DNA of 64,000 nucleotides from Tissierella sp. MB52-C2 (GTDB lineage Bacteria; Bacillota; Clostridia; Tissierellales; Tissierellaceae): positions 1,116,001 to 1,180,000 of the forward strand of contig NZ_CP133261.1 in assembly GCF_030931715.1 (NCBI RefSeq), written 5' to 3'. The translations under genes and the position numbers were made by a program. Under the pieces are notes generated by a model, which made no database searches, was not told the origin of the DNA, and worked only from the letters and a program-made list of their open reading frames with translations. Of this stretch, positions 9,901-28,684 are shown piece after piece. Every line of letters begins with the position of its first letter. Positions within the stretch are counted from its first letter, which is position 1.

Positions 9901-9942
9901 GGACAAAAGTTAGCTGACAAGAAATTTATTCTGGAATATACT
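9901..9942 (+). promoter_or_regulatory. Shared peptide-island promoter, copy 1
   Basis: GGACAAAAGTTAGCTGAC (9901-9918), with TTAGCT at 9910-9915 and TATACT exactly 21 bases further (9937-9942). The same word with the same spacing stands before the first radical SAM gene, lanM and the intact lanthipeptide precursor. The word sits where an activator overlapping the -35 would bind. Confidence 0.75.
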
Positions 9943-9979
9943 TTAGATAAAGAAGGGAATAAAAGGGAGGTAGACAAGC

Positions 9980-11374: not shown

Positions 11375-11408
11375 ATTTAAAGTATAATTATTAGAAGGGG
11401 TGAATTTT

Positions 11409-13473: not shown

Positions 13474-13916
13474 AGATAAAACATATGAAAAGAGATAGTC
13501 TATTACCATATATATTACCTAGTTTATGTGGGATATTATTTTTTTATGGTGTCCCTTTTATATTGTCTTTCTATTATACTCTTATAAATAATATGGGAGA
13601 AAATAAGTTTATAGGATTAAAGAACCTCTCTGAAACATTGTAAAATCCAATATTTCAGAGATGTTTAACAAATCAAAGTCTTTTTATAGTCATTGTGGTG
13701 CCGCTATGCCTTATTTTAGCTTTATTTTTTGCATTACAAATAAGGAAATTAAACAAAGGTAAGAATCTTATATTTTTAATATCCATCATACCCTTTGTTA
13801 TTCCATTAGGTACTAGCATATATTTTTGGAAATTTATCTTTGATGGAGATGGACTTGCTAATAAAATTTTGTATTCCTTCAATATTTCCATGATCAACTG
13901 GTACAAAAATAGCTGA
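13470..13916 (+). pseudogene. Sugar ABC transporter permease (MalF-like), decayed fragment
   Basis: The ATG at 13470 overlaps the previous remnant. It reads SLLPYILPSLCGILFFYGVP, the typical first membrane segment of MalF/UgpA-type permeases. A TAA stop at about 13641 breaks it, and two or three more hydrophobic segments follow (LFIVIVVPLCLILALFFAL, IIPFVIPLGTSIYFW). It ends at 13916 before the conserved EAA loop. It is a broken partner of the binding protein. Confidence 0.7.
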
Positions 13917-14007
13917 TTAAGCTACGAAGCAAAGGCTTCTATTGTTTATAAATGTACTGAATAAAATGAGAATAAATCGTAAAATTAAATGATTAAATTT
14001 TAAAAAT

Positions 14008-14049
14008 TGGACAAAAGTTAGCTGATTTTAGAAACTGAAGAATGTACAA
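14008..14049 (+). promoter_or_regulatory. Shared peptide-island promoter, copy 2
   Basis: GGACAAAAGTTAGCTGA (14008-14024); TTAGCT at 14017-14022 and TACAAT at 14044-14049, again separated by exactly 21 bases. It lies about 130 bases upstream of the first radical SAM gene. It links that operon to the lanthipeptide genes. Confidence 0.75.
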
Positions 14050-14176
14050 TTGATTATAATAAGATAAGAAAATATATAATTTAATTATCGGACAAGCTTT
14101 AAGTTTTCTTCATCGTAGTTGAATTTAAAAATTCTTATGTATGGAATGAAAATTAAAAATACTAAGGAGGTAAAAT

Positions 14177-15343
14177 ATGTATACTATCTATTTAACAACA
14201 AGATGTAATTATAGGTGCTCATATTGTTATGAAGATTATGGATATGAAACTGATATGTCTCAAAATCAAATTATAAATGTGGTGGATTATATTTTTAAAT
14301 ACGATAAAAATCAAAAAATTAATATTGGCTTTATGGGTGGTGAACCATTATTAAAAAAAGATATCATTTTTTTAGTCGTTGATTATATTAAAAAAAAATA
14401 TCCAGATAGAAATATAAAATATTACATGACATCAAATGCATCATTAATTACTAGGGATTTTGTAGATTTTATGAAAAACAATAATTTTGAACTAAGAATA
14501 AGTCTAGATGGAAGTAGAAGTACAAATAACCAAAATAGGTATAGTAAAAATAAAATTGATTATTATGGTGAAATATTCAATCATTTAAAATTTATGAGTG
14601 AAACCAAACTTAAATATTCAATAAGAATGACTGTGGCAAAAAATGCTATAACAGATTTATATGACAATATTAAGTACCTCTATGAGACATTTTCTGAACC
14701 GATAAATTTAATTTTCGATATTAATATGATTATTGATGATACAGTAGAGGACCTGATTCGTAAAGAAATCAAAAAAATAGAAAACTATTATGTATCGAAA
14801 AACTTGTGCTCTAATAAGAGTGGTCTAACCATAGATCAATTTGATGGTAAATTCGTAAATGTACTTTCAAATTTTGAAAATAGATTTGGGATGTGTTCTG
14901 CTGGAATTAGTTCTTTTAATTTTATGCCTGATGGGAAAATATACCCATGTGGATTTTTAACAAACAATGATAAATTCAGCATTGGAGATATTAATGAACC
15001 CATAAATACGTGTATGTCAAAACGCCTAGCAATTTCACTCGTTGAAAAGGAAAAAACAAAATGTAATGATTGTAAAATTAAATTCTTTTGTCATGGAATG
15101 AAATGTGGATATAAGAATTATATTAGAACAAGTAAGATTAATGTACCATCTGATTCGACTTGTAAGATTGAAAAGATATTCTATTCTTCAGTTATGAATA
15201 TTTTAAACTGTTTTTTGAATGATGAAAATACTGATAATATTTTGGGTAGAAAATTAAAATCTATAATAAAATCAATAGACTATACGGGTTTACAGCTAAG
15301 TGATTTTGGGGAACTAATAAAAAATAAAGTGGAGATAATATAA
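14177..15343 (+). CDS. Radical SAM/SPASM peptide maturase 1
   Basis: 388 residues with AAGGAGG upstream. C10-x3-C14-x2-C17 (TTRCNYRCSYCYED) binds the radical SAM 4Fe-4S cluster, FMGGEPLL is the SAM-binding GGE motif, and ISLDGS is the usual later strand. The C-terminus has a SPASM-type Cys set (FGMCSAG, YPCGFL, KCNDCKIKFFCHGMKCGY and a late Cys), expected to hold auxiliary 4Fe-4S clusters. Such enzymes install thioether, C-C or related links in ribosomal peptides. It is the first gene of an operon with a protease, two more radical SAM genes and two small precursors, and is controlled by the shared promoter. Confidence 0.88.
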   Translation: MYTIYLTTRCNYRCSYCYEDYGYETDMSQNQIINVVDYIFKYDKNQKINIGFMGGEPLLKKDIIFLVVDYIKKKYPDRNIKYYMTSNASLITRDFVDFMKNNNFELRISLDGSRSTNNQNRYSKNKIDYYGEIFNHLKFMSETKLKYSIRMTVAKNAITDLYDNIKYLYETFSEPINLIFDINMIIDDTVEDLIRKEIKKIENYYVSKNLCSNKSGLTIDQFDGKFVNVLSNFENRFGMCSAGISSFNFMPDGKIYPCGFLTNNDKFSIGDINEPINTCMSKRLAISLVEKEKTKCNDCKIKFFCHGMKCGYKNYIRTSKINVPSDSTCKIEKIFYSSVMNILNCFLNDENTDNILGRKLKSIIKSIDYTGLQLSDFGELIKNKVEII

Positions 15344-15348
15344 GATTT

Positions 15349-16362
15349 ATGAAAATAGGAGTAATTGATACCGATGGAATATTCGATCACACTTTTTTTA
15401 AAGATAAAAATATAAAAATAATTAGATATAACCATGGTATAAATGGTGTAAAAAATTGGAATTATAATTTCACCCATTCAGAATATATATGTTCTTCAAT
15501 ACTACAAGAAAATCCAAATGCAGAAATTATATTAGTAAGCATTATAGGTGAGGAATATAGAAAAAAAGGTGTAGATTTTATAAAGGCTCTTTATTATTTA
15601 ATAGATCAAAATGTAGATATAATAAACTTGAGCTTAGGAATAGAAAATACTTATTATAAGGAGTTGTTTGGGGCATGTGAGTATGCAAAAAGTAATAATA
15701 TTCTTATAGTTGCATCACATTCAAATAATGGTAATATTACATATCCGGCAAATTTTAATAATGTTATTGGAGTTACAGCAAAACCTTCTGAAAGTTATAG
15801 ACTATTTAATTATGATCATGAAAATAATGATATTTACTATAATTCAACCTTACCTTATATTTCTTATTTTCATCTAAATCAATATAATTTGATGATAGGA
15901 AATAGCTTTGTTACAGCAAAGATTACTGGTATACTGAGCAACTTTATAGGGGATCGTAATACCGATGATAAGAGTTTGCTTATAAATCTGATTAATAGTC
16001 CAATTAATAAAGTAACAAAGTATCAAGACTATAGAGATGAAAACTTTATATTTATAACTAATAGATCTAAAGATCCATTGCAGCTGAAATATATAGAAGA
16101 GTATCCAAATTGTAAGATGATTATAGATATAAATGAAATCGAATATTTTAAGGCAGATGGTAAAAATTTAGAAGAGGTTTCATTATTCATTGACATCAAT
16201 AGTTATAAATTGTCTTGTGAAGTAAGAAGTAAGTTGAATAATATTATTAAAAATAAATGGGCAGTCTACAATTCTATTTTGTCAAGATATCCTCATTATA
16301 ATTTTGTAGAACGTTTAGGTTTTTATAAAGAAAGCATTACCATCAATCAATATCTATTTTAA
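15349..16362 (+). CDS. Subtilisin-like (S8) serine protease, cytoplasmic
   Basis: 337 residues beginning five bases after the previous gene. The catalytic triad is visible: Asp7 in GVIDTDG, His43 in FTHSEYI, Ser186 in GNSFVTAKITG (replacing the usual GTSMAAP). The SHSNNGNITYPA segment holds the oxyanion Asn region. There is no signal peptide or propeptide, so it acts in the cytoplasm. In RiPP loci such proteases remove leader peptides, and that is the likely job here on the two small precursors downstream. The last 130 residues do not match the protease fold and are of unknown role. Confidence 0.85.
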   Translation: MKIGVIDTDGIFDHTFFKDKNIKIIRYNHGINGVKNWNYNFTHSEYICSSILQENPNAEIILVSIIGEEYRKKGVDFIKALYYLIDQNVDIINLSLGIENTYYKELFGACEYAKSNNILIVASHSNNGNITYPANFNNVIGVTAKPSESYRLFNYDHENNDIYYNSTLPYISYFHLNQYNLMIGNSFVTAKITGILSNFIGDRNTDDKSLLINLINSPINKVTKYQDYRDENFIFITNRSKDPLQLKYIEEYPNCKMIIDINEIEYFKADGKNLEEVSLFIDINSYKLSCEVRSKLNNIIKNKWAVYNSILSRYPHYNFVERLGFYKESITINQYLF

Positions 16363-16387
16363 TTAAATAAGGTTATGGAGGTAAGAA

Positions 16388-17488
16388 ATGTATTTTCTAA
16401 CATTAGAACTTATCAATGCTTGTAATATGACTTGTAAATATTGCTATTTAGGATCTAAAAAAAATAAATTGATGACTAAAAATACAATTGAAAGGTCTAT
16501 TGACATATGTATTAATGAAGCTGTAAAACAATATGATAAGAAATTAGATGTTTGTTTAATTGGAGGAGAGCCTTTAATGGCATATGACAACATGGTATAT
16601 ACTGTCAACTTAACTAATAGAAAGTGCGAAGAGAAAGGAATATCTGTTTTTTATAATACTATTATTAATGGGACGTTATTAAATAAAGAGATGATGGATT
16701 TTTTTATAAAAGAGAGATTTGATTTAAAAATTAGCTTAGATGGCTCAGAAAGTGTACACAATTTAAACAGATTTTACAATGATGGAAGTGGTAGCTATAA
16801 CGATGTAGTAGATAAATTAGACTTAATTAGAGATTATGAAAAGGCTACAGGCAAAAAATGCTCTGTTGCAAATGTAATAACAAAAAATAATGTAGACAAA
16901 CTGAAAGATACAATTATTCATATACATAATTTAGGTTTTAAAAGATTAGAGTCCGGTATTAATATATATGATGATTGGGATACCCCTTACCTGGAGATTT
17001 TAAAAGAGCAAATAAATTTGGCATTTGATTACTATATCACAAAAAAGATGGAGGGGGATAGCTTTTATTGGTTTTTTATAGAGAAAAAATTAAGAAATTA
17101 TTTTACTGATGTTGAGTTCTATGGATGTAGAGCTGGATTATACTCTTCATATATAAATGTTGATGGTCAGATATATACATGTAAAGAAGTTGAAAATAGA
17201 GATTTTTTAATTGGAGCAGAAGACAAAGGTTTATATCCAGATAAAATAAGAAACTTGATAAGAAAACAGAGTATCTATAATGAATGTATGGATTGCTCCT
17301 ATTTAAGTCATTGTAGTGCACGAGGCTGTATTATTGAGAATTTTGAAATAAATGGTGATATTTATAAACCGGTACAAATTAAGTGTTTAGAAACAAAGAT
17401 AGTTTTTGATATGTTTAAAAATAAAATTGGCAAAGAACAAGAAGAATCTTTTCGGAAATTTTATGAGAGGATGAATAGTAATGTTTAA
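16388..17488 (+). CDS. Radical SAM/SPASM peptide maturase 2
   Basis: 366 residues with GGAGG upstream. C12-x3-C16-x2-C19 (INACNMTCKYCYLG) is the cluster site, and LIGGEPLMAY the SAM-binding motif. The C-terminal SPASM part has FYGCRAG, IYTCKEV, NECMDCSYLSHCSARGC and a late Cys (IKCLET). It lies between the protease and the third radical SAM gene with short spacing and an eight-base overlap downstream. It is only distantly similar to maturase 1, so the two probably act on different positions or sequentially. Confidence 0.88.
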   Translation: MYFLTLELINACNMTCKYCYLGSKKNKLMTKNTIERSIDICINEAVKQYDKKLDVCLIGGEPLMAYDNMVYTVNLTNRKCEEKGISVFYNTIINGTLLNKEMMDFFIKERFDLKISLDGSESVHNLNRFYNDGSGSYNDVVDKLDLIRDYEKATGKKCSVANVITKNNVDKLKDTIIHIHNLGFKRLESGINIYDDWDTPYLEILKEQINLAFDYYITKKMEGDSFYWFFIEKKLRNYFTDVEFYGCRAGLYSSYINVDGQIYTCKEVENRDFLIGAEDKGLYPDKIRNLIRKQSIYNECMDCSYLSHCSARGCIIENFEINGDIYKPVQIKCLETKIVFDMFKNKIGKEQEESFRKFYERMNSNV

Positions 17489-18713
17489 GAATGATAATTT
17501 ACATATATTAAAAGTTGAGAATAAAGTATTAGTAACTAATTTCGAAAATGAAACTATGTTCTCTATTCCTATAGAAAAATATAATAAATTAGATGGTGAA
17601 ACTTTATATAATTTTTCAAGAAAAATATCAACAAATAAAAATGTATTGGACAAGCCATTTGATATAAATATAAACACTTTATACATAATATTAACGGAAA
17701 AATGTAATCTAGGTTGTACTTTTTGTGCTTTAGGATGTGATAGTTCTAGTGAGATGGATAATTTAGAATTAGATATAAATAGAATAAAAAACAAACTTAT
17801 TGATTTGATAAAACAATCTAATCCTAGAAAAATTATTTTAACAGGTGGGGAACCTCTTATATATGGAAAACTTGGAGAAGTAATTGAATTATTAAAAAAA
17901 CATACAACAGCTAAAATTGTATTACAATCTAATGGTTTGTTATTAAATGAAGAGATAATTGATAGATGTCTTAAAGATGTTGATTGTATAGAAATTAGTA
18001 CAAGCCACTATGATGAAATTGGAAAACTAGATAATAGTTTGGACTATTTAATTAAATCAGGATGTGATCTTAGTTTGTCCTTTTTATTTGATGGTAATTA
18101 CAATAAATTATATAAAGTTGTCGATTTAGTTTTAGATAAAAAGGTTGGATTTGTGTTGAATTTCATAGCAGGATTTGGAAGTGCGAAATTAAATGATTTA
18201 AATATATTATCAGGAGAGGAGAAGTTAAAGGTCTATTACAATCTAGCTAGATATTTATTAAATAAAGAAAACAAAGATATTGAAATTCTAAATTACACCT
18301 TTTTTTCGGGATTGAAAATCACTAAACCTTGTGGTGCATTTGGAAGCATATTAACTGTTTATCCTAACGGTAATATTTATCCATGTCATTCTACCACTGA
18401 GTCATGTTATTGTATTGGAAATATAGATGAAGATAACTTCGATAATGTATTAAAAGCTTACAAGAAACTAATGAATTCGTCAAAATACAAACAAAAATTC
18501 GTATTAAATCAAAATGGAATATGTAATGATTGCGAATATATCTACCATTGTGGAGGATATTGTTTAGCAAAAGATTCTAAAGAAAATTTGTCAGATTGTA
18601 TTTTAAGAAAATTTTGGGTTGATTATTACATATTATATTATGATTTTAAAAAAGCATTTCGAAATAATCTAACCAGTTTTGTAAATTATTATGAATTAAA
18701 ATACAAAAATTAA
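17481..18713 (+). CDS. Radical SAM/SPASM peptide maturase 3
   Basis: 410 residues overlapping the previous gene by eight bases. An N-terminal extension of about 65 residues (MFKNDNLHILKVENKVLVTN...) precedes C75-x3-C79-x2-C82 (TEKCNLGCTFCALGC). LTGGEPLIYG is the SAM-binding motif. The SPASM cysteines are in KPCGAF, YPCHSTTESCYC, ICNDCEYIYHCGGYC and DCILRKFW. The extension could hold leader-binding function, but I do not see a clear RRE (PqqD-like) pattern. It is followed directly by the two precursor genes. Confidence 0.88.
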   Translation: MFKNDNLHILKVENKVLVTNFENETMFSIPIEKYNKLDGETLYNFSRKISTNKNVLDKPFDININTLYIILTEKCNLGCTFCALGCDSSSEMDNLELDINRIKNKLIDLIKQSNPRKIILTGGEPLIYGKLGEVIELLKKHTTAKIVLQSNGLLLNEEIIDRCLKDVDCIEISTSHYDEIGKLDNSLDYLIKSGCDLSLSFLFDGNYNKLYKVVDLVLDKKVGFVLNFIAGFGSAKLNDLNILSGEEKLKVYYNLARYLLNKENKDIEILNYTFFSGLKITKPCGAFGSILTVYPNGNIYPCHSTTESCYCIGNIDEDNFDNVLKAYKKLMNSSKYKQKFVLNQNGICNDCEYIYHCGGYCLAKDSKENLSDCILRKFWVDYYILYYDFKKAFRNNLTSFVNYYELKYKN

Positions 18714-18872
18714 ATTGTATGTACTATATTCCTATATATATTACATAAATCTAAAGAAGGAGGTTAAATAAATAATATAAGATTTGGCTGTCTAAAAATG
18801 TTGAAGGTTACAACTTATCTAACAACAATAGACAGCATAGGAATTCAAATCTAAGGTTTAAGGAGGGAAATT
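18714..18872 (+). promoter_or_regulatory. Leader region of the twin precursors
   Basis: 159 bases between maturase 3 and the first precursor. They contain a strong but start-less AAGGAGG (about 18756-18764), then the AAGGAGGG used by the first precursor (18859-18867). The lone ribosome site may mark a deleted third precursor. A weak promoter (TTGTAT, TATATT) may lie near 18716-18742. Confidence 0.35.
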
Positions 18873-19037
18873 ATGAACGAAAAGGAACTAGTTTTAAAAA
18901 GCAAAGAAGAGGCTATTGTAAGCGAAGAATTAACTGTAGAGGAAGTTAATGTATATGGAATGTATTGTGGAGATCCTAGAATAGGTTGTTTTGTAGATTG
19001 TCCTGATTTATCGCCATGGATCACAGATGCGTGGTAA
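18873..19037 (+). CDS. RiPP precursor peptide 1 (three-Cys, PWITDAW tail)
   Basis: 54 residues after a strong AAGGAGGG. The N-terminal 25 residues are acidic and leader-like, ending in ELTVEEVNVYG. The rest holds three cysteines, YCGDPRIGCFVDCPDLS, and ends PWITDAW. The second peptide downstream shares the leader ending EELT.EEVN.YG, the Cys spacing (C-x6-C-x3-C here, also C-x6-C-x3-C there) and the PWITDA end. Conservation of both leader and core next to three radical SAM enzymes and a protease supports a precursor role. I do not recognise a described RiPP class. Confidence 0.85.
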   Translation: MNEKELVLKSKEEAIVSEELTVEEVNVYGMYCGDPRIGCFVDCPDLSPWITDAW

Positions 19038-19093
19038 GATTACAAGTAAGTTAGTATTTCCCAAGGAAAAATATAAAGAAAGGAGAATCTTTT

Positions 19094-19249
19094 ATGGATG
19101 AAAAAATCTTATTAGAAAATGAAAAATTAACAAATGAAGAATTAACAAAGGAAGAAGTTAATATTTATGGTAACCCTTGCGGTTCTATTAAAATCCATTG
19201 CTTATATGATTGTATAAACAATACCCCGTGGATAACAGACGCTAACTAA
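19094..19249 (+). CDS. RiPP precursor peptide 2 (three-Cys, PWITDAN tail)
   Basis: 51 residues with AAAGGAGA upstream. The leader is EEL TKEEVNIYG-like, followed by NPCGSIKIHCLYDC and the ending PWITDAN. Compared with precursor 1, the conserved positions are YG, CG, I, C, DC, PWITDA; the residues between vary, which is the pattern of a bacteriocin-type pair or of two products of one pathway. A strong hairpin follows the stop. Confidence 0.85.
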   Translation: MDEKILLENEKLTNEELTKEEVNIYGNPCGSIKIHCLYDCINNTPWITDAN

Positions 19250-19256
19250 TGATTAG

Positions 19257-19297
19257 ATCATACCTACTAGTTTGTACAGTAGGTATGATTAAATTTT
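19257..19297 (+). terminator. Hairpin after the precursor pair
   Basis: ATCATACCTACT (19257-19268) and AGTAGGTATGAT (19278-19289) form a perfect 12-base stem, followed by TAAATTTTC. The T-tract is weak, so it may be a partial terminator or an mRNA 3'-end stabiliser for the precursor transcript, with the ABC transporter genes read through. The following 170 bases to the ABC gene show no gene. Confidence 0.65.
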
Positions 19298-19467
19298 CTT
19301 GCTTTAAGCATGGAAAGTCATTGGCTATGACAATGTAAGAAAAAAATTTAGCTTCAAGTAAAAATACATACTAATAATGATGTTTTATCAATTATATCAC
19401 AATATTGAATGTATCCAAGTTAGTGGGTTTTATTATATATGTTTAATAAATTCAGAGGAGGTGCCGT

Positions 19468-20172
19468 ATGCAAATAGTTAAAATAAATTATTTAAAAAAA
19501 TATTTTGGTGAAGAACCAAACATTGTTAAAGCAGTAGATGATATTGAATTATTTATTGATGAAGGAGAGTTCGTTTCTATTATAGGAGATTCAGGCAGTG
19601 GCAAAACCACCTTACTAAATTTAATAGGGGGAGTAGATCGTCCGACTTCAGGTGAAATAATTATTGCGAACCAAGATATCAACGAATTAACAAACGACGA
19701 ACTTACAAGATTTAGAAGAAAACATATTGGATTTATATTTCAAAATTATAATTTGGTTTCGATTTTGAATGTCAGGGAAAATATTTTATTACCATTGGAT
19801 TTGGATGATAGGCAATATGACGAAGAATATTTTAATGAAATAGTAAGTACTGTAGGAATTGATGATAAGTTAGAGGAATTTCCAGCTAAGTTGTCAGGGG
19901 GGCAACAACAAAGAGTAGCAATAGCAAGAGCCTTAATTACAAAACCTAAGATTATTTTAGCTGATGAGCCTACTGGAAACTTGGATCATAAAAATGGAGA
20001 GAATATTATAAATCTATTGATAGAATCTAACCAGCGTTTTAATCAAACAATACTAATGATAACTCACAATTTAGAATTAGCAAAGAAAGCGAATAGAATT
20101 TTAGAAATCTTGGATGGAAAAATTGTAAAGGAGAAAATAATATGCAAAAGGCAAGAGATAGAGGATTTTTAA
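19468..20172 (+). CDS. ABC transporter ATPase (MacB/LolD/BceA type)
   Basis: 234 residues with GAGGAGGTG upstream. Walker A is GDSGSGKTT, the signature LSGGQQQRVA, and Walker B IILADEPTGNLD. The sub-family is that of ATPases that partner FtsX-domain permeases. It overlaps the permease gene by 31 bases. Its place after the precursors suggests export of, or self-protection against, the mature peptide. Confidence 0.9.
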   Translation: MQIVKINYLKKYFGEEPNIVKAVDDIELFIDEGEFVSIIGDSGSGKTTLLNLIGGVDRPTSGEIIIANQDINELTNDELTRFRRKHIGFIFQNYNLVSILNVRENILLPLDLDDRQYDEEYFNEIVSTVGIDDKLEEFPAKLSGGQQQRVAIARALITKPKIILADEPTGNLDHKNGENIINLLIESNQRFNQTILMITHNLELAKKANRILEILDGKIVKEKIICKRQEIEDF

Positions 20173-22523
20173 AAAGTTATGCTGTTCGAGGGATCTATTC
20201 AAATAAAATGAAATCTTTTTTTATAGGCCTCACTATTTTTATAATTACAGTATTTGTTCTTACAACCTCCTTGTATCTGGCAGGGATGAGGACCATCGTA
20301 GAAGATAGAATATTCAACTCACATCAGGCTACTTTTTTAAACTTTGATATTACGAATATTAATAAACTAAAAGAACATGAATATGTAGAAAAAGCTGGAA
20401 TGGGAAATATTATGGGAGAATACAGTCGGCAAGATTATAAAATAAGAGTAAGCTATATGGATGCTGATTTGAGAGATATGGCAAGCCTTTCGGATATTGA
20501 AGGGAAAGAACCGTCTGGCAAAAATGAAATTATTGTTCCTAAAGATTATTTGAACCATCTAGAGTTACCTGAAGAGATTGGGCAGAAACTTAAATTGGAT
20601 TTAGGAAATGGCGTGGAGGAAGAATACACCATATCCGGCATTATTCAAAAAGAGAGTGCGCCAAGATTGTATGTAGTCCTTGTTTCAAGAGATTATGTAG
20701 AACAATATGGTGATAAAACACAATACTATGCTCAATTGAAGATAAAAGACGCATCTTCTTATGGAGAAGAGGAATTAAAAACACTTATCCAATCAATTGC
20801 AGATGAAAATCAAGTAGAAAAGGTGAATTATTTCTCAGCTTATTTCAGCTATGTAAGGGGCTTTTCACCTTCACAGACATTGGCGGCGATAGGTGTAGGA
20901 GTGCTGTTGGCTTTTGCAGCATATATGATTCTTTATAATATATTTTATATTTTTGTATTACAGGATACTCGTGAGATAGGCCTTCTTAGACTTATTGGAG
21001 CAGATAAAAAACAGGTAAAGAAAATCCTATATCAAAGGGGTATCTACCTTGCTACGAGGGGAATTTTTATAGGTGTTTCTTGCAGCATTTTAATTGCTGG
21101 TTTTGTGTTGCCCAATGGGTTTCGACTAATATTTGAAAAAAATCTAATAGCTACTGGAAAAAGCCTCATACTGACTGTTCTATATGTCAGCTTAGTTGTG
21201 TTTTTATCCTTGAGAATTCCTATGAGAAGAATCAAAGTGATTTCTCCCCAAGAAGCTTTTAGTTCTTCTTTTGGAGAAAGCCATATTATAAATCGCAAAG
21301 AGCGATATAAGGTAACACCTAAATTTTTAGCTTTATTAAACACTGGAAGAGACCCCAAAAAAAGAAAAGGTATCATTATTTCCCTGGGAATTGCAGGAAT
21401 ACTATTTATTACCGCCGCATCCCACATACGTTCTATTGACACGGAGATATTGGCTCGTCAATCATATCCAAATGAGGAATTTAAGATATTTTTGTCACAG
21501 GAAAACAGTGGGAAAGAACATGATAATGTAGAAAACTATCGAATATTGCAACAAAATAATCCAATTGATAACGAACTTATCAAAAAAATAGAGGTACTGC
21601 CCAACATAAAAAGTGTTAGAGAATATAAAGGTACATTGGCAGAAGTTGTGATTAATCAAGGAGGTAGCAGTTATTCTAATATTGAAGGTTATCATCAGGA
21701 AGCGGAAGATGCTTTTAAGAAATATCTCCTAGATGGAACTGTGGATGGAGTAGAATTAGAAAGAGAGAATGGAGTAATTATAAAAAGTCCTGGAACTTTC
21801 AAGGAAGTTTATGGATGGGATGTTAAGTTGAACGATTCTATTCAAGTTAAAACAGTAAATGGCGAATTAGAATTAAAGGTTATGGGAATTATTTCGGCTT
21901 ATGAAAGTGAAAATGCTTTTTTATTTGTTCCCGAATCAATATTGCAAAATATACAACCTCTTGATAATTACAATTATCGATTCACTGTTGAACTTCAAAA
22001 TAAGGATTTGAATTCTCAAAAGGAAGCAGAAAAACTTCTTCGAAATATAATAGGAACAGAAGAATTGGAGATGGATACGTTGCAAGATAGTATTGGAGCA
22101 TATGAAATAGCTGTTAGGTCTACAAAAAGGGTGGCATATGGCATTACCTTTTTAATTATTTTTATGGGAATAATGAATTTGATAAACACGTTAATAACAA
22201 ATGTTATTAGCAGAGTTGTAGAAATCAGCACAATGCAGATTGTAGGATTAGACGAGAAACAATTAATTCAAATGATACGGAATGAGAATTTATACTACCT
22301 CGGGAGTATAAGTATCATTTCAGCCATAGGAGGCGGTATACTTTCATTGATTGTGTACCACATTATAAGGAATAATCCGATATTTGGGAGATTGCCTTAC
22401 GTTTTTCCTTTTATAGAGATGATGATTTATATTATAGTAATATTTATAATCGAAGAGATATTGTTACAGTATAGTATAAGATATCTTGAAAGAAAACCAT
22501 TAGTCCAGAGAGTAAAAAATTAA
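20142..22523 (+). CDS. FtsX-family ABC permease (MacB-like)
   Basis: 793 residues. There is a first membrane helix at about residues 25-50, a large extracytoplasmic domain, and an FtsX unit with three helices near 255-350 (LLAFAAYMILYNIFYIF..., DTREIGLLRLIGADKKQVKK is the typical cytoplasmic loop). A second extracytoplasmic domain follows, and then a final FtsX unit (VAYGITFLIIFMGIMNLINTLI ... STMQIVGLDEKQL). This two-FtsX layout is common in BceB/YtrF-like peptide exporters and immunity pumps. The ATPase gene directly precedes and overlaps it. Confidence 0.88.
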   Translation: MQKARDRGFLKSYAVRGIYSNKMKSFFIGLTIFIITVFVLTTSLYLAGMRTIVEDRIFNSHQATFLNFDITNINKLKEHEYVEKAGMGNIMGEYSRQDYKIRVSYMDADLRDMASLSDIEGKEPSGKNEIIVPKDYLNHLELPEEIGQKLKLDLGNGVEEEYTISGIIQKESAPRLYVVLVSRDYVEQYGDKTQYYAQLKIKDASSYGEEELKTLIQSIADENQVEKVNYFSAYFSYVRGFSPSQTLAAIGVGVLLAFAAYMILYNIFYIFVLQDTREIGLLRLIGADKKQVKKILYQRGIYLATRGIFIGVSCSILIAGFVLPNGFRLIFEKNLIATGKSLILTVLYVSLVVFLSLRIPMRRIKVISPQEAFSSSFGESHIINRKERYKVTPKFLALLNTGRDPKKRKGIIISLGIAGILFITAASHIRSIDTEILARQSYPNEEFKIFLSQENSGKEHDNVENYRILQQNNPIDNELIKKIEVLPNIKSVREYKGTLAEVVINQGGSSYSNIEGYHQEAEDAFKKYLLDGTVDGVELERENGVIIKSPGTFKEVYGWDVKLNDSIQVKTVNGELELKVMGIISAYESENAFLFVPESILQNIQPLDNYNYRFTVELQNKDLNSQKEAEKLLRNIIGTEELEMDTLQDSIGAYEIAVRSTKRVAYGITFLIIFMGIMNLINTLITNVISRVVEISTMQIVGLDEKQLIQMIRNENLYYLGSISIISAIGGGILSLIVYHIIRNNPIFGRLPYVFPFIEMMIYIIVIFIIEEILLQYSIRYLERKPLVQRVKN

Positions 22524-22540
22524 CTTAGATACTAAGTTAT

Positions 22541-22735
22541 TTGAAAACTACCATAAAAAATAGAACTGATACAAAAAGTGAATGCAGGCCAGTCATAAAC
22601 ACTATTGCAAAGGATACTTTTATGTCAAGGGTTACAGTAACGAGGAGGATAGCTGACCTTATCAGATGCGGATTAATTAGCAAAGAATCAGGTTACAGGG
22701 AAAATGACAGTAACTTTTCTAACCGATATTTTTGA
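22541..22735 (+). pseudogene. HTH fragment from a mobile-element protein
   Basis: 64 residues containing TIAKDTFMSRVTVTRRIADL and CGLISKESGYRENDSNFSN. This resembles the helix-turn-helix segment of replication or regulatory proteins carried on clostridial mobile elements. Upstream homology is cut by the ABC permease end, so it appears to be a fragment. Confidence 0.45.
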
Positions 22736-22753
22736 AAAATAATGCTAAACAGT

Positions 22754-22797
22754 AAAAAAGACAGGTTATCCACCAAGGAATTAGCTGTCTTTTTCAC
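22754..22797. terminator. Bidirectional-type terminator hairpin
   Basis: AAAAAGACAG (about 22755-22764) pairs with CTGTCTTTTT (about 22785-22794) and can work in either direction. Confidence 0.65.
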
Positions 22798-23323
22798 AGA
22801 CCGAGATGGGAGTCATTGTGAACCTATTTGTAGAGAGATGGTGATATGCATATCCATTGTTATGTTTGTGATAGGAAAAATTAACACTATGGTGTTATGA
22901 GTAGGGAAAACCATATTCGTATATCTTTCAATACTTATACTTTGACTTTAGGGATTAGCTAGTATTTGGCTATAACAACTTAATTCTTAGAACTTGAAAT
23001 GAGGAATTAAAATGAAGTTACAGTCAATCACGCTACATTTGCTGTGCTTGCTGATGCTAATAATTATTAAAACGGTATATCCTATAGCAAAATCAAAAAA
23101 CATCAAACAAAAGTTAGCTGGAATATTTAAGAAAATATACTATAATAGAATGACATCATAATGCATAAATAGATTTTCTTTATATAAATAATAATAGAAG
23201 GAAACCAATATGATCTAAATAATAATTTTAAACTGATTTAAACATACCTCATCCAAAAGAAAAGGTGATTGATCTTTGGTATATTTATTAATAATAGAAA
23301 TTTAAGTAAGTGGGTGAAAGATA
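22798..23323. other. Region upstream of lanM
   Basis: No convincing gene. A 49-codon frame (from 23011, MKLQSITLHLLCLLMLIII...) is hydrophobic at its start but overlaps the promoter motif and is not credited. The regulatory part is the shared promoter at 23105-23146. The mRNA leader from there to the lanM start would be about 170 bases. Confidence 0.4.
23105..23146 (+). promoter_or_regulatory. Shared peptide-island promoter, copy 3 (lanM)
   Basis: AAACAAAAGTTAGCTG (23105-23120); TTAGCT at 23114-23119 and a perfect TATAAT at 23141-23146, 21 bases apart. It drives lanM and the two-component genes behind it, so the regulator probably controls its own synthesis. Confidence 0.75.
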
Positions 23324-26131
23324 TTGGGAGATAAAAAGATTCAATTTGAAGGGTATATAAATAGTTATCTAGAAAATCACTTGGCAGAGAATAGATTAAG
23401 TAAAGAATATTTTAACCTGGGATTTTATGATTACTTATTAGAACAGGTTCAAAACAATTCAATAAAGACATTGTTAACTATTTTTTGGGCTTTTAAAAAA
23501 GAGCAACTTTTGATAGGAGATGTTCCAAAAGAAAGATATGAAAACTTTGCTCAATATTCATTAACAGAAGAATTTCATGAATTAGTTGATAAAATGTATC
23601 CATTATTAAAACCAAGATTAAATAAAATTCTTCAGAATCACATAATAAATTATAATGATTTAAAAAGTAGAGTTGGAAAAGATAAGGACGAAATTGATAA
23701 GAAGTTTGGATTTAGTATTGGAGACATAAAAGATTGTAATATAACATATGGAGTTTCGGATTACCATAGGGGTCTAAAATCAGTTTGTATAATAGAAGTT
23801 GATAATAAAAAGATAATTTATAAACCACGTTCTGGAAAAATAGATATTTCGTGGAGTAATTTTATTAACTGGTTTAACTCCAAAGGTTTATCGTTAAAAA
23901 TAGATACTATTAAGACATTAGATAAAGAAGAATATCATTGGCAAGAATATATAGATAACAAGTCATGTAAATCAAAACTAGAAATTCAAAATCTTTATTA
24001 TAGAATGGGTATCCTAGCAGCTATATCTTATGCTTTTAGAATAGAAGATTTGCATATGGAGAATATTATTGTAAGTGGGGAGTTCCCACACATAATAGAT
24101 TTAGAAACGATTTTTCAATTAGATGGGTTTCAAAAAAGTAATTTAGAGGTAAAAACTGTTAGTGACATTATAAATAAAAAAATTAGTGAGTCTGTTTTAA
24201 GCACACAACTTTTTCCCACACCTAGTAAATTCCATGATTCTGAAGTAGATATTTCAGGTATAGTGGGACAAGGTAAACAGATAATAAAAAATGGTAAAGT
24301 TAAAATTTCCAATCAATTTACTGATGCTGTTGAAGTTATAAGAGAAGACGGTATAATGGCAAGAAAAAGCAATATTGGACAAATAGAAGATAATTTTATT
24401 AATCCAAAAGATTATATTAAAGAAATAATAGAAGGATTTAAAGAAGGATATATATTACTTAAAGATAACAAAGAAGAACTTTTAGGGTTAATAAATTCAG
24501 GAGAATTATTTAAAGGAATTTCTCCAAGGTATCTTTTTAGAAATACAAATCTATATGCTATAATTCTTGAAATGAGTAGAAATCCTAAATATTTGAAAAA
24601 TAAGTCAGATTTAGATAGATTATATCATCTTCTTTTTAATACAGATAAAGATTATATACTTAAAAAAGTTTATCAATCAGAATTAGTAGACTTACTAAAT
24701 GATGATATACCGTATTTTTATGGATATATTAATGATAATACTGTATATAATTCTAATGGAGATGATTGTTTTATTCTAAAACAAACACCACTAATGGCAG
24801 TAAATGAAAGAATTAAAAATCTAAATCAAGAAGATCTAAATATTCAAATAGACTTTATATTAAAATCTATGGCTAAACCAAAAAAGACTTGGAATACTGT
24901 TAGGAATAAAAGTGATGATAATATAATTAAATATATAGATAATAACAATCAACTTGTGATAGAATCTGCTATAAAAATAGGTGATATGCTAATTAGTAAA
25001 GCTGTTTTTCATGAAAGAACAAAAACAATTAATTGGTTAGACATTCAAAATACATTCCCTACTTGGACCATTGGTTCACAAGGGGTATCCCTATATAATG
25101 GTTTAGCAGGGAATGCAATATTCTTTTCCAGTTTATATCTTGCAACAGTTGATATAAGGTACAAAGAAATATTGTATAAGATATTAAATACAATAAAATT
25201 AGATGTTGGGAATATAAAAAACATACCTCCTTCAGCATTTAATGGAATGATTTCTATAGCATATTTGTATGCGTTTTTGTATAAGCAAATAGGATACAAG
25301 AATATGCTTGAAGAGAGTGTTGATATTGTAAAAAAATATAAGGCAAAGATTTTGCAAAACATTTCATACGACATTATTGATGGGTTAGCTGGTATTCTTG
25401 TGGTGATTTTGAATATATTTGAGTTAAGTCAAGATAGAGAATTAGAACACTTATCTATAGAGGTGGGAAAAGATATAATTTCAAATATTAAAATAGAGGG
25501 GAAGTCAGCTTATTGGAAAAAAGGTAGTAACAATGAACTTATGATATCAGGATTTTCTCATGGCTTGGCTGGGGTATCCTATGCACTGGGTAAACTATAT
25601 AAGATGACGAATTATAAAGAAAGTATATATATAGTTGATAATTTAATAAAAATAGAAAACAATTATTATAATAGTGATATTGAGAATTGGATGGATTTAA
25701 GAAGTCAGGGTGATTTAAGTATAAATGACTCTCCTATACATTGGTGCCATGGGGCAACTGGTATCGGGCTATCAAGATTAAAGAATAAAGATTTTATAGA
25801 TACTTTTGATGATATTGATAAAGCTTTGAAAGCTGTCAAGAAGAATGGTTTATATCGTGATAGTGATTGTCTATGTCATGGAAATCTAGGAAATATGGAG
25901 TTGTTGTTAGAAGTATATAAAGAGAACAATGATATAGATTTATATAATCAGGCTATTATTAAAGCGAATGAAATAATAAAAAGGAATGAAGGTAGCCAAG
26001 AATATAAAAGTGGTGTAGGTCAAGAATTTAATAGTCCAAATTTTATGTTAGGATTATCTGGAATGGGATATGAATTTCTAAGATTATCAAATCCAAAAAA
26101 ATATCCATCTGTATTATTATTGGAGGTTTAA
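23324..26131 (+). CDS. lanM: Class II lanthipeptide synthetase LanM
   Basis: 935 residues from a TTG with GGGTGAA upstream. The N-terminal dehydratase (DUF4135) domain shows KPRSGKIDISW, IEDLHMENI and IIDLETIF, the kinase-like ATP site that phosphorylates Ser/Thr before elimination. The C-terminal LanC-like cyclase has the zinc ligands Cys808 (HWCHGATG), Cys851 and His852 (LCHGNLGN), and the GLAGNAIFF, GFSHGLAG and GLSGMGYEF repeats of the alpha/alpha barrel. Length and motifs are complete, so it should be active. It dehydrates and cyclises a precursor; the obvious partner is the peptide at 28517. The histidine kinase gene starts one base after its stop. Confidence 0.93.
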   Translation: MGDKKIQFEGYINSYLENHLAENRLSKEYFNLGFYDYLLEQVQNNSIKTLLTIFWAFKKEQLLIGDVPKERYENFAQYSLTEEFHELVDKMYPLLKPRLNKILQNHIINYNDLKSRVGKDKDEIDKKFGFSIGDIKDCNITYGVSDYHRGLKSVCIIEVDNKKIIYKPRSGKIDISWSNFINWFNSKGLSLKIDTIKTLDKEEYHWQEYIDNKSCKSKLEIQNLYYRMGILAAISYAFRIEDLHMENIIVSGEFPHIIDLETIFQLDGFQKSNLEVKTVSDIINKKISESVLSTQLFPTPSKFHDSEVDISGIVGQGKQIIKNGKVKISNQFTDAVEVIREDGIMARKSNIGQIEDNFINPKDYIKEIIEGFKEGYILLKDNKEELLGLINSGELFKGISPRYLFRNTNLYAIILEMSRNPKYLKNKSDLDRLYHLLFNTDKDYILKKVYQSELVDLLNDDIPYFYGYINDNTVYNSNGDDCFILKQTPLMAVNERIKNLNQEDLNIQIDFILKSMAKPKKTWNTVRNKSDDNIIKYIDNNNQLVIESAIKIGDMLISKAVFHERTKTINWLDIQNTFPTWTIGSQGVSLYNGLAGNAIFFSSLYLATVDIRYKEILYKILNTIKLDVGNIKNIPPSAFNGMISIAYLYAFLYKQIGYKNMLEESVDIVKKYKAKILQNISYDIIDGLAGILVVILNIFELSQDRELEHLSIEVGKDIISNIKIEGKSAYWKKGSNNELMISGFSHGLAGVSYALGKLYKMTNYKESIYIVDNLIKIENNYYNSDIENWMDLRSQGDLSINDSPIHWCHGATGIGLSRLKNKDFIDTFDDIDKALKAVKKNGLYRDSDCLCHGNLGNMELLLEVYKENNDIDLYNQAIIKANEIIKRNEGSQEYKSGVGQEFNSPNFMLGLSGMGYEFLRLSNPKKYPSVLLLEV

Positions 26132-27784
26132 ATGAATACTCAAAAAATACCAATAAAAGCCCCCAAAAAAAACATTGATAGGGGAACGCTACTTACAATC
26201 TATATTTTTATCCAGATGCTGTTATATCTCTTAACATTTAAAGCATTAAAAAAGAATGAATATAATATTATAGAATATTTATCAATATATTTAGCTTTAA
26301 TTTATAGTGCTATTGCTTATCTAGTTTTATTATTGAATACTAGAAATAATAAAACAATGTATTATTATTGTGTAGTAACAACTATTTTAAGTTTTTTTTT
26401 ACTGATAGATTTGAGTTATTTAAGAAACTATGAGGGTAGCTATAACTATATTCAACTTATTGTATTATTTATGATATTGAATATAAGTCAAGATATTTTA
26501 ACACAAAAGATAAGTAGAGGGTTATTTTATAAATATATAATAATTATTTTATGGACTATAGGCATAGTACTAGGATTATTTAAAAAAGATATGTATATGT
26601 TGATTTATCAAATAACATTTTTAATTATTAGTATTTATCCTATTATTTCTTTAATATACAATTATAAAAAGATTAAGAACTATGGTAAACATTTATTCCC
26701 TGTATTTTTATTTATAGCTTTAGTGAACACTATATTTCTTGTATCAGGTTTTTTTACAACAAGCTCAGAAAGAGGAATACATAACTATGACATTTATATC
26801 TATTTAAATATAATAGAACTTGTTATGAGTTATTTAATTCTATCAACTTTAGGATTCTGGGAATTAATAAAAAATAAAAAATATAATATAAATCGAAATA
26901 CTATAATTGGTTTGATTTTTGTTATGGGATATATATACTGTAGTAAGGAAAGACTGAAAATAGGTATTTTTACGATTTTCAGTTTTATTATAATATTAAA
27001 GCAATCTCAGATATTAGATTATTATATAAGGCTAGCGATTAATAAAAATAATGATATGCAAAGTGAATCGGAAACTTTTGGTTTGTTTAAGAACATAATC
27101 AAAGATAATGTTGCTGATTTTAAGAAAGAGGAGTTATATAAAGAGCGTGTTGCAGGTTTTTTACATGATGAGATATTACAAGATACTATATATGTAAAAA
27201 AAGAACTTCTTGATCATTATAAAATGTCTCCAAATGAAAAAATCTTTAAAGTTGTTGATAAGATTATTAATACAACAAGAGGACAAATAAGTTTATATAA
27301 GCCTTATATAAATTATGATTTAAATTTAGCAGAAAATTATTACAACCTTATTAAGTCTTTGAAAAATAGATTTAATATTAATAATATATTGGTAGACTTT
27401 GTTTGTGATGGTAAATTGTTCTTAAGCCCGCCATATGATTTGATAATTTACAGAATGATTCATGAATTAACTACCAATATCTTTAAGCATTCTAAAGGAG
27501 AATATTCTATCATAGAGCTTGAAGCGGATAAGAATAAGATTATTTTAAGTGTGACAAATTATGGAGATTATCTTGATAATGGAACCATTATAAACATTGA
27601 TAGCAGAGGGCTTAAAATCATAAAGAGTGATATAGATAGATTAAATGGGACTCTAGATATAAACTCATCTGTAGATTCAGATAGTTTAATTAGTGAGGGG
27701 GAATTTGATGAATCTATACTTAATATAAAAATTACGATACCGATTAAGGGAGAAAAGATGTATGAAAATTTTATTAATAGATGA
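26132..27784 (+). CDS. Membrane sensor histidine kinase (NarL-type, HisKA_3-like)
   Basis: 550 residues. The first 300 contain about eight hydrophobic segments in succession with short loops, so the sensor is buried in the membrane and has no large outside domain. The phospho-acceptor His345 lies in FLHDEILQDT, followed by a HATPase domain (RMIHELTTNIFKHS N-box, then LDNGTIINIDSRGLKI). GGAGG sits just before the ATG. It overlaps the response regulator by 23 bases. Such polytopic kinases often sense peptides (as AgrC/BlpH types do), so the modified peptide may be its signal; this is inference. Confidence 0.85.
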   Translation: MNTQKIPIKAPKKNIDRGTLLTIYIFIQMLLYLLTFKALKKNEYNIIEYLSIYLALIYSAIAYLVLLLNTRNNKTMYYYCVVTTILSFFLLIDLSYLRNYEGSYNYIQLIVLFMILNISQDILTQKISRGLFYKYIIIILWTIGIVLGLFKKDMYMLIYQITFLIISIYPIISLIYNYKKIKNYGKHLFPVFLFIALVNTIFLVSGFFTTSSERGIHNYDIYIYLNIIELVMSYLILSTLGFWELIKNKKYNINRNTIIGLIFVMGYIYCSKERLKIGIFTIFSFIIILKQSQILDYYIRLAINKNNDMQSESETFGLFKNIIKDNVADFKKEELYKERVAGFLHDEILQDTIYVKKELLDHYKMSPNEKIFKVVDKIINTTRGQISLYKPYINYDLNLAENYYNLIKSLKNRFNINNILVDFVCDGKLFLSPPYDLIIYRMIHELTTNIFKHSKGEYSIIELEADKNKIILSVTNYGDYLDNGTIINIDSRGLKIIKSDIDRLNGTLDINSSVDSDSLISEGEFDESILNIKITIPIKGEKMYENFINR

Positions 27785-28373
27785 TCATGGAATGTTTAGT
27801 GAAAGCTTAAAAATTACTTTAGAAAGAGATGGAAATATTGAAAGAGTAGATGTACTAGAAGATATAGATATGATAAAGTATAGAATATTAAATAATGAAT
27901 ATGATATTATTTTAATGGATATAAATATTAAAAAAATTACTGGAAATAAAGATGGACTCACAATTACAAAAGAACTTTTAGAAAAGGACGAGACATTGAA
28001 GATAGTTATGTTAACAGGATTTGATATGCCAGGATATGAAATAGAAGCCAAAAAAATTGGTGCCAAGGGGTTTGTATGTAAGGATGATTATACGGAAGTC
28101 CTAATAGAGAAACTTAAGAAGGTATATGCTGGAGAGAGTGTATTTAGAGAAGAAACTGTTTATATGGATGAATTAACAGAACGGGAGAAAGAAATATTAA
28201 TCTTATACAGTTCAGGACTTTCAAGAAAAGAAGTTGCTAACGAATGTCATATATCAGTAAGTTCATTAGCTGTAACATTAAATAGAATTTATGAGAAATT
28301 GGATATAAGAAATTATCAAGAGATGGTAAATAAGGCGTTGGAATTGGGATATATAAAACCAAACTTTTTTTAA
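27762..28373 (+). CDS. LuxR-type response regulator
   Basis: 203 residues. The receiver domain has the acidic pair IDDH, the phosphorylation site Asp53 (IILMDINI), and the conserved Thr (MLTG) and Lys (IGAKGFVCKDD). The C-terminal LuxR HTH starts with LTEREKEILILYSSGLSRKE. It is translated with the kinase by overlap. The four-copy motif ACAAAAGTTAGCTG at a fixed distance from -10 boxes, one of them before its own operon, makes this protein the best candidate to bind it. Confidence 0.9.
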   Translation: MKILLIDDHGMFSESLKITLERDGNIERVDVLEDIDMIKYRILNNEYDIILMDINIKKITGNKDGLTITKELLEKDETLKIVMLTGFDMPGYEIEAKKIGAKGFVCKDDYTEVLIEKLKKVYAGESVFREETVYMDELTEREKEILILYSSGLSRKEVANECHISVSSLAVTLNRIYEKLDIRNYQEMVNKALELGYIKPNFF

Positions 28374-28440: not shown

Positions 28441-28481
28441 TACAAAAGTTAGCTGACATTAATTATATTTTTAAATATAAT
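28441..28481 (+). promoter_or_regulatory. Shared peptide-island promoter, copy 4 (precursor)
   Basis: TACAAAAGTTAGCTGACA (28441-28458); TTAGCT at 28449-28454 and TATAAT at 28476-28481, with the same 21-base spacing as the other three copies. Confidence 0.75.
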
Positions 28482-28516: not shown

Positions 28517-28684
28517 ATGGAAATGTTACTAATAAGAATAGATAAAGCTGCAAATGAGGTAATCAGCAAAAATTTAACTATGGATGTAACAGAACAACAG
28601 ATGAGAGAATTAATCTATGAAGAAGAAGTTTTTGCGAGGTCTATATCAAGGGCTTGTCCTACAAGTTTTATAATGTGTTGTTAG
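28517..28684 (+). CDS. lanA: Class II lanthipeptide precursor, salivaricin A-like core
   Basis: 55 residues with GGAGGGG upstream. The leader MEMLLIRIDKAANEVISKNL and the acidic EEEVFA are followed by SISRACPTSFIMCC. This end aligns residue by residue with the C-terminus of salivaricin A (TITDDCPNSVFVCC), placing it in the lacticin 481 group. Ser, Thr and Ser residues and three Cys can give up to three thioether rings. It lacks the double-glycine (GG/GA) cleavage site usual in this class, and I see no C39 peptidase transporter nearby. The leader protease and exporter are therefore uncertain; the S8 protease and the ABC pump of the neighbouring cluster could serve. A broken paralogue is at 9980. 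Confidence 0.85.
   Translation: MEMLLIRIDKAANEVISKNLTMDVTEQQMRELIYEEEVFARSISRACPTSFIMCC

Follow-up and report, generated by a model that had tools for sequence, protein, structure and literature searches.

Genes for S8 proteases and for radical S-adenosylmethionine (SAM) peptide enzymes are already known in combination, both from the Qhp system and from the lachnocin annotation of a Paraclostridium sordellii plasmid (L185). Here, we analyse such a combination in the window, a 64,000-nucleotide stretch of Tissierella sp. MB52-C2 (contig NZ_CP133261.1). At 14177-22523, eight open frames, all on the + strand, encode three radical SAM enzymes (rSAM1, rSAM2 and rSAM3), an S8 protease, two short precursors, an ATP-binding cassette (ABC) ATPase and an FtsX-type permease. 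We read this cassette, with moderate confidence, as a locus for ribosomally synthesized and post-translationally modified peptides (RiPPs) that would yield two related, S8-trimmed and radical-crosslinked peptides of ~25 residues, co-regulated with a lanthipeptide. By analogy to described enzymes, the crosslinks are probably Cys-Asp thioethers.

PapB is reported to join the sulfur of Cys to Asp or Glu side chains, with Cys upstream and n of 0-6 in Cys-Xn-Asp (PMC9413430). PapB of the freyrasin ranthipeptides (NF047865) is the best NCBIfam model for both rSAM1 and rSAM2, and in the window cores Cys likewise lies upstream of Asp in a CxxD geometry compatible with the PapB spacing rule. In contrast to freyrasin with its six CX3D units, the window has three enzymes, an S8, two precursors and three cysteines. 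In the Qhp pathway (PMC7876137), QhpD makes Cys-Asp/Glu thioethers, the cytoplasmic subtilase QhpE removes the leader and ABC export follows, the same order that we propose below; the Qhp substrate, however, is an enzyme subunit, and the window S8 stays below the QhpE cut-off. Thuricin CD resembles the cassette in having two precursors (TrnA/TrnB) and more than one radical SAM enzyme, and TrnC and TrnD are reported to act as one complex on both precursors (PMC12093266), an arrangement possibly shared by the window enzymes. Unlike thuricin CD, the window adds a third enzyme and the S8, and its precursors differ.

Two further systems share parts of the inventory. A CcpM system (TIGR04068/TIGR04066) of the same genome combines radical SAM enzyme, S8 and exporter beside the same lanthipeptide block of LanM, histidine kinase, response regulator and LanA that neighbours the cassette, whereas the window enzymes fall far under the TIGR04068 cut-off of 500 bits (rSAM1 119, rSAM2 122, rSAM3 41) and no protein of the cassette matches TIGR04066 in NCBIfam. 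Lachnocin (NF038169/NF038170) unites short peptide, radical SAM maturase and S8 peptidase on the plasmid L185, but the precursor there is of GACHCGCDGKPW type, and the maturase model gives rSAM1 100 and rSAM2 60 bits against a cut-off of 550. Altogether, no cassette protein attains the cut-off of any specific RiPP-enzyme model in NCBIfam, and the cassette falls under no curated family. Because pairings of S8 proteases and radical SAM peptide genes are already known, we regard it as a variant within a known kind and not as a kind of its own. Literature searches, beyond whose reach much of the RiPP literature lies, returned no description of the cassette or of the CxxDC loci treated below.

Gene content, precursors and recurrence of the cassette

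The open reading frame (ORF) listing gives the order rSAM1, S8, rSAM2, rSAM3, precursor 1, precursor 2, ABC ATPase and FtsX permease (Table 1). Both precursor genes lie downstream of all three radical SAM genes and have ribosome-binding sites upstream. Encoded precursors thus accompany modifying enzymes, two in the window and one in G065, a genome from the same order but a different family. An earlier note on this DNA had called the region a RiPP-type locus, which three SPASM radical SAM enzymes, a cytoplasmic S8 and two related precursors bear out. The three radical SAM/SPASM genes that it named are present but not all adjacent, the S8 gene lying between rSAM1 and rSAM2, and its MacB-like ABC transporter is recovered as a LolD/MacB-type ATPase with an FtsX permease (Pfam ABC_tran and FtsX). 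Its description of the S8, with an intact triad and no signal peptide, agrees with the alignment: D7, H43, N126 and S186, corresponding to the catalytic residues of the subtilase family, are invariant over six S8s. Moreover, the protein begins with MKIGVID at the catalytic domain, and neither signal peptide nor propeptide is seen by eye.

All three radical SAM enzymes score above the Pfam Radical_SAM cut-off. The Pfam SPASM model is passed by rSAM3 (29.0) and narrowly missed by rSAM1 (21.4 against 21.5), with no SPASM reported for rSAM2; in alignments, all three retain CX3CX2C and seven more cysteines of the SPASM region. Trees place rSAM1 and rSAM2 weakly, and rSAM3 sits on a long branch. The protease matches Pfam Peptidase_S8 with 50 bits. 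Membership in QhpE (NF049966) was rejected at 98.3 bits against a cut-off of 165; no S8 in any of nine genomes exceeds this cut-off, and other S8s of those genomes score equally high.

The two precursors are 53% identical and paralogous, precursor 1 as query retrieving precursor 2 from the genome at E 2e-11, and both carry C-x6-C-x3-C, in line with the related short genes and identical Cys spacing reported earlier. Three cysteines placed at random in 25 residues show this spacing with p 0.006; for any 4-mer in common between shuffled cores, p is 0.007. Together with the G065 precursor, to which they are 32-33% identical, they have E-L, EVN-Y and C-G-x5-C-x2-D-C in common, and the Asp of CxxDC is the only acidic core residue found in all three. 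By chance, CxxDC would arise in 2-4% of such cores (p 0.017-0.036 per core). The PWITDA ending, which the earlier note had proposed as the mark of the class, is confined to the window: the G065 orthologue ends in FGTAFINPNR, and what is kept is CGx5CxxDC. That the precursors fit no described family was upheld, as no NCBIfam or Pfam family matches them up to E 1; in PHROGs, precursor 2 has one marginal match (E 0.01) of a function unknown there. A precursor profile (A3) run at E 0.01 over 160 related genomes returned the two window precursors, the G065 precursor and one short frame in G045 (E 0.0065), which is antisense to the start of a 427-codon frame and is taken as a chance match. Precursor 1 found nothing at E 1 by tblastn in 72,556 plasmids. 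Homologues of the small ORFs lacking radical SAM neighbours, named earlier as speaking against the proposal, were likewise not found in the 160 genomes and the plasmids searched.

Between rSAM3 and precursor 1, a predicted RNA hairpin has -20.3 kcal/mol and z -2.5, with 3 of 200 shuffles equally good; the precursors could thereby be produced in excess over the enzymes. The stretch before the G065 precursor shows no resemblance to it. Rfam gave nothing at gathering score in window 13500-30600.

The cassette recurs in G065. Searching 150 related genomes with the S8 yielded G065 as the sole strong non-self match (225 bits, 40% identity), followed at 60 bits. On the minus strand of this locus (L034) lie precursor, ABC ATPase, FtsX permease, rSAM1, an exporter fusing transmembrane and nucleotide-binding domains (TMD-NBD), S8, rSAM2 and rSAM3. 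Between window and G065, identity amounts to 46% for rSAM1, 45% for rSAM2, 32% for rSAM3, 59% for the ABC ATPase and 29% for FtsX. Because the set recurs and the precursors share their core, we consider the cassette a conserved unit with the core motif CGx5CxxDC. G065 has a single precursor with all three enzymes; therefore, the enzymes do not require a precursor pair. Of 249 genomes of the order, three have matches beyond 1e-25 to a profile of the two rSAM3 sequences: the window's own genome (G000) and G065, both at near-self scores, and G060 (91 bits), where no S8 is found in the stretch read (L048). With a profile of the two S8s, two of 391 genomes of the class pass 1e-20, the own genome and G536 (77 bits).

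The sole other rSAM3-profile match in the own genome at 1e-25 is an enzyme of L045 (G000:C1:945000-958500). At 1172-7269 of this stretch, several radical SAM-like genes form what looks by eye like a RiPP locus, along with a small protein of PqqD size and a 45-residue peptide with CGFNC.

In the pathway that we propose, the leader (EELT.EEVN.Y) would recruit the precursors to the radical SAM enzymes, of which the PapB-like rSAM1 and rSAM2 would form thioether crosslinks from core cysteines. The most plausible link is one between Cys10 and the beta-carbon of Asp13, the invariant Asp of CxxD; Cys3 and Cys14 might act as additional donors. rSAM3, whose role is the least certain, may introduce a second modification or assist as a partner subunit, comparable to TrnD with TrnC. 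The S8 would cut off the leader inside the cell, like QhpE, near VN-x-Y-[GE], and cleavage there would leave 25 residues for both window precursors. The product may leave through the ABC/FtsX pair or through an exporter encoded elsewhere, the pair alternatively providing self-protection. Finally, a promoter box in common would let kinase and regulator of the lanthipeptide block activate LanA, LanM and the rSAM operon at the same time. The product is most likely a bacteriocin-type peptide pair made alongside the lanthipeptide, which would either join it in a cocktail or act as its inducer.

The same cassette may instead perform other chemistry, namely sactionine links to alpha-carbons or a three-residue cyclophane at the aromatic end (W-I-T), and thus make a sactipeptide-like or mixed thioether/C-C peptide. 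We consider this a doubtful, though serious, candidate. Thuricin CD, too, has two precursors and two radical SAM enzymes (PMC12093266), and triceptide enzymes connect an aromatic residue i to residue i+2, Phe-Ser pairs included (PMC11002830). Tails compatible with an i/i+2 spacing are W-I-T for the window, F-I-N for G065 and, in several further precursors, Y-x-S. The tails differ widely, however, and rSAM1 and rSAM2 score best with PapB rather than with cyclophane or sactipeptide models, although none of these scores, that of PapB included, reaches a cut-off.

A lanthipeptide block with a common promoter box

Behind the cassette lies a LanM that exceeds its TIGR03897 cut-off and, together with a LanA-like peptide, identifies a class II lanthipeptide system (Table 1). 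The earlier note overlooked this block and the promoter box described next, as well as a second two-radical-SAM/S8 system of the genome (L046) and the wider CxxDC loci treated below. In G065 the same block follows the cassette, with identities to the window of 73% (LanM), 70% (kinase), 88% (regulator) and 71% (LanA). The block is thus 70-88% identical between both genomes, whereas the enzymes and transporter of the cassette are 29-59% identical. A small secreted-looking protein at window 28993-29439, near the block, has nothing meaningful in NCBIfam (best E 0.057).

Cassette and block are preceded by a common box, consisting of the 15-bp ACAAAAGTTAGCTGA, N19 and the -10-like TAYART. The box alone occurs at four window sites (up to two mismatches) against 0.22 expected by chance, and with N19 and the -10 element (up to three mismatches) the four sites compare with 0.05. 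In the whole genome of 3.89 Mb there are nine boxes with up to one mismatch, eight of them exact and all on the + strand, whereas the reversed control gives none; the other five lie at 1,046,902-1,068,254. G065 has four boxes. Three belong to the locus, before the precursor operon, before a gene that we take to be NlpC/P60-like (one mismatch) and before LanA, and the fourth is at G065:C20:18087-18101 (one mismatch). Intact LanA-like frames stand behind boxes at three places.

The five remaining boxes of the own genome fall into a second locus at 1.045-1.076 Mb (L204-L205), where a further LanM-kinase-regulator-LanA block carries boxes and has a LanM 65% identical to that of the window. This block is followed by a TMD-NBD exporter, CcpM, a TIGR04066 protein, an acyl-carrier-like frame (by eye) and a 390-residue S8, and scores of 546.5 for TIGR04068 (cut-off 500) and 256.9 for TIGR04066 (cut-off 200) establish a CcpM system. 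A lanthipeptide block therefore stands beside a radical SAM/S8 cassette in three of three places (window, G065 and 1.045-1.076 Mb), a count that comes from loci reached by other searches than for the block as such and is no census. It accompanies two different kinds of cassette, the three-enzyme and the CcpM kind.

Parts of the second locus are duplicated in decayed form at window 9870-13920, with 79-91% DNA identity. The duplicate contains a box, a broken LanA-like copy, a split secreted protein and fragments of a sugar ABC transporter, and a small secreted-looking protein lies near the decayed copy at 11024-11374. Ahead of it, an IS3-like element (type read from sequence) at 8328-9646 is 94-97% identical in DNA to its second-locus counterpart.

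These arrangements suggest, tentatively, a portable controller: LanM, kinase, regulator and LanA may drive swappable radical SAM cassettes via the box ACAAAAGTTAGCTGA-N19-TAYAAT, with the lanthipeptide as pheromone or obligate partner. If so, either a three-enzyme CxxDC cassette or a CcpM cassette could be plugged in, and two unrelated ring chemistries would share one regulon.

The proximity of both blocks also raises the idea of a hybrid product with both kinds of ring, in which LanM acts on precursors 1 and 2 or the radical SAM enzymes act on LanA. The precursors do contain Ser/Thr and Cys, the blocks are adjacent in three places with the box in common, and near the CcpM and S8 of the second locus only the LanA-like precursor was found to contain Cys, small frames having been searched there only behind boxes. 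A hybrid is nevertheless improbable, as the leaders of LanA and the two precursors are unlike each other by eye, the LanM block is far better conserved between window and G065 than the radical SAM cassette, and the lanthipeptide block occurs with two different cassettes.

Decay could extend to the cassette itself, leaving it present but no longer productive. The exporter gene of the G065 type is missing in the window, and the neighbourhood at 9.9-13.9 kb is the broken duplicate. Against this, all eight cassette frames are open with intact motifs, box and terminator-like hairpin are in place, and the genome has other TMD-NBD exporters (L046, L204), so that we hold a defunct cassette to be quite improbable.

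Table 1. Position and strand of the cassette genes, neighbouring genes and regulatory features in the window
Feature	Position	Strand	Description
rSAM1	14177..15343	+	SPASM radical SAM enzyme, PapB-like; without N-terminal extension ahead of the radical SAM core
S8	15349..16362	+	cytoplasmic S8 subtilase, likely leader protease
rSAM2	16388..17488	+	radical SAM enzyme, PapB-like
rSAM3	17481..18713	+	divergent SPASM radical SAM enzyme; 74 residues before the first Cys of CX3CX2C
Precursor 1	18873..19037	+	54 amino acids; presumed core MYCGDPRIGCFVDCPDLSPWITDAW
Precursor 2	19094..19249	+	51 amino acids; presumed core NPCGSIKIHCLYDCINNTPWITDAN
ABC ATPase	19468..20172	+	LolD/MacB type; putative export or self-protection
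FtsX-type permease	20142..22523	+	two FtsX stretches (Pfam)
RNA hairpin, predicted	18780..18852	+	between rSAM3 and precursor 1
Terminator-like hairpin	19251..19295	+	behind precursor 2; z -4.74, 0/200 shuffles as good
LanM	23324..26131	+	class II lanthipeptide synthetase; TIGR03897 699 bits, cut-off 304
Sensor histidine kinase	26132..27784	+	family read from sequence
Response regulator	27762..28373	+	C-terminal LuxR-type helix-turn-helix, family read from sequence; candidate box reader
LanA-like precursor	28517..28684	+	55 amino acids, ends RACPTSFIMCC; no NCBIfam match
Promoter box	14011..14050	+	before rSAM1; ACAAAAGTTAGCTGA-N19-TACAAT
Promoter box, one mismatch	23107..23146	+	before LanM
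Promoter box	28442..28481	+	before LanA
Fourth box	9903..9942	+	before broken LanA-like copy (about 9980-10145)

Related CxxDC loci and the weight of the proposed pathway

In the plasmid collection, tblastn with rSAM3 led to a plasmid from Clostridioides difficile and another from P. sordellii; around the matches lie two or three genes for radical SAM enzymes together with an S8, a short ORF and an ABC exporter. The own genome (L046) has a similar locus, as do G004, G041, G053, G081, G535, G536 and G598, another P. sordellii plasmid and an IMG/VR contig bearing ten tandem precursors. Both radical SAM types and an S8 are present in 15 of 18 loci examined, namely the window, G065 and a set of 13 others (L043, L044, L046, L047, L050, L051, L106, L107, L108, L109, L112, L114 and L174). 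In 13 of them, one fixed filter retains a small CxxDC ORF, intergenic and on the same strand; in the remaining two (L047, L112) the ORF exists and was removed by the overlap or length rule. The other three loci have no such ORF and consist of the pair only (L110), the S8 only (L041) or one radical SAM gene with an S8 (L049). Across the 18 loci, 25 of 97 small intergenic ORFs carry CxxDC, where shuffled residues would give an expected 0.44; a single contig accounts for ten of the 25, and window plus G065 for three. The scanned CxxDC peptides have no NCBIfam match, and no Pfam model comes near its cut-off.

The 13 loci thus resemble the cassette in their PapB-like short radical SAM enzyme, second radical SAM enzyme, S8, CxxDC precursor and, where read, ABC genes, and the cores of the window precursors carry the CxxDC of the set. 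They have one PapB-like enzyme, whereas the window has two. With precursor profiles built without window and G065, precursor 2 leads the 478 small window ORFs, though with an E of only 0.16-0.28, and the G065 precursor leads 87 (E 0.011-0.027), while precursor 1 is third with one profile and outside the top six with the other. By tblastn against the plasmids, the best match by bits is a CxxDC-set locus for rSAM3 (three records at 1e-10) and for rSAM1 (seven records at 1e-15), and for rSAM2 it leads by one bit among the 20 listed of 37 records. The S8 has no plasmid match at 1e-15; at 1e-4, a CxxDC-set locus stands first of 29 but tied at 65 bits. The window/G065 group and the CxxDC set may therefore share ancestry. 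A stronger statement, that the window enzymes form a branch of the set, has lost its support, which came from profiles containing window and G065 themselves and was circular; leave-out profiles removed it.

Several matches proved to lie outside the set. Those in G913 and G679 are no members, as no S8 was found in the former (L179) and the frames of the latter (L180) are broken; plasmid matches from Anaerococcus, Enterococcus raffinosus and P. bifermentans have no such locus. A further match falls in an Acetoanaerobium stretch that carries no annotation. A contig scan with rSAM2 gave 11 loci, two of which (L026, L030) we take to be SCIFF maturases, judging by the peptide in front; the nine others score similar or lower with the profile of the first enzyme type (rSAM-A). 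Viral scan A6 gave 60 loci, with a complete system in L114 and part of one in L116; the others lie below the score limits used. The viral scan with the enzyme of L114 retrieved only itself, scans A5 and A2 none, and the phage collection yielded a single weak partial match.

Individual loci of this wider group have features of their own. L046 (G000:C1:1573500-1586500) gives the Tissierella genome a second two-radical-SAM/S8 system, with two CxxDC precursors and ABC-2-type genes (types by eye). The IMG/VR contig (L114, 1-14339) serves ten CxxDC precursors, mostly YCxPxxCxxDC...C, with one radical SAM pair and S8, which to judge from sequence makes it a natural combinatorial set. On C. difficile plasmid p_TW11 (L050, 8062-9585), a gene annotated as murJ (lipid II flippase) adjoins the CxxDC locus on the other strand and could hint at the target or at self-protection. 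The loci on P. sordellii plasmids (L051, L174) adjoin annotated genes for accessory gene regulator B and a cyclic lactone autoinducer, which suggests quorum control there. In G536 (L041, 6968-8008), an S8 of the CxxDC-locus type (307 bits) stands without any radical SAM gene across the 14 kb read. L049 (2956-9726, G068) combines a PapB-like radical SAM enzyme (247.7 bits), an exporter, a 664-residue S8, an acyl carrier protein and a tandem of two short peptides whose cores differ, and is perhaps intermediate between the window kind and CcpM-type systems.

Several results weigh against the pathway that we favour. rSAM1 and rSAM2 remain far below the PapB cut-off of 340 bits (174.7 and 190.3; rSAM3 55.5), and scores of this type also occur among SPASM enzymes of other kinds: CcpM in the second locus reaches 186. 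The N-terminal stretch of rSAM3 could be a short leader-binding domain, but the structure model is poor (predicted local distance difference test, pLDDT, 46.9) and does not support one. No leader-binding domain turned up when solved structures were searched with the N-terminal regions from 16 second radical SAM enzymes. Further, leader cleavage after YG is not backed by G065, which has YE, the TMD-NBD exporter that G065 encodes between rSAM1 and S8 is not in the window, and box and regulator are connected by position only.

The leave-out profiles, built from 10 S8, 12 rSAM-A and 16 rSAM-B sequences with window, G065 and near-identical copies excluded, weigh in the same direction. With the S8 profile, the window S8 scores 94.6 bits (36th of 77) and that of G065 69.6 (44th); both fall among ordinary subtilisins, whereas true members left out score 193-378. 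rSAM1 reaches 203 bits in the window and 232 in G065, and rSAM2 194 and 196, compared with 196-199 for SCIFF-type maturases and 231 for the single radical SAM enzyme of L049. rSAM3 scores 111-116 bits, while a SCIFF-type maturase reaches 106 and the G913 enzyme 201. The enzymes of window and G065 are thus no closer to the CxxDC set than to other SPASM enzymes or subtilisins.

A product that stays inside, as a peptide-derived cofactor or part of an intracellular protein comparable to pyrroloquinoline quinone (PQQ) or Qhp, is suggested by QhpD-like and QhpE-like scores below their cut-offs, but we hold it to be very improbable given the two short precursors with variable cores, the ABC genes behind them, the lanthipeptide neighbour, the ten precursors of one related contig, all of them traits typical of secreted peptides, and the absence of a dehydrogenase subunit among the frames read by eye, no search having been aimed at one.

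The cassette, with the crosslinked and S8-trimmed peptide pair that we propose, offers a defined system in which to study how one small substrate is shared by several SPASM radical SAM enzymes. Mining for relatives should use CGx5CxxDC rather than PWITDA, and the cassette points to wider uncurated CxxDC loci, some of which lie on plasmids of C. difficile and P. sordellii. Should the promoter link hold, lanthionine and radical chemistry would be united in one regulon, with the lanthipeptide as a possible inducer.

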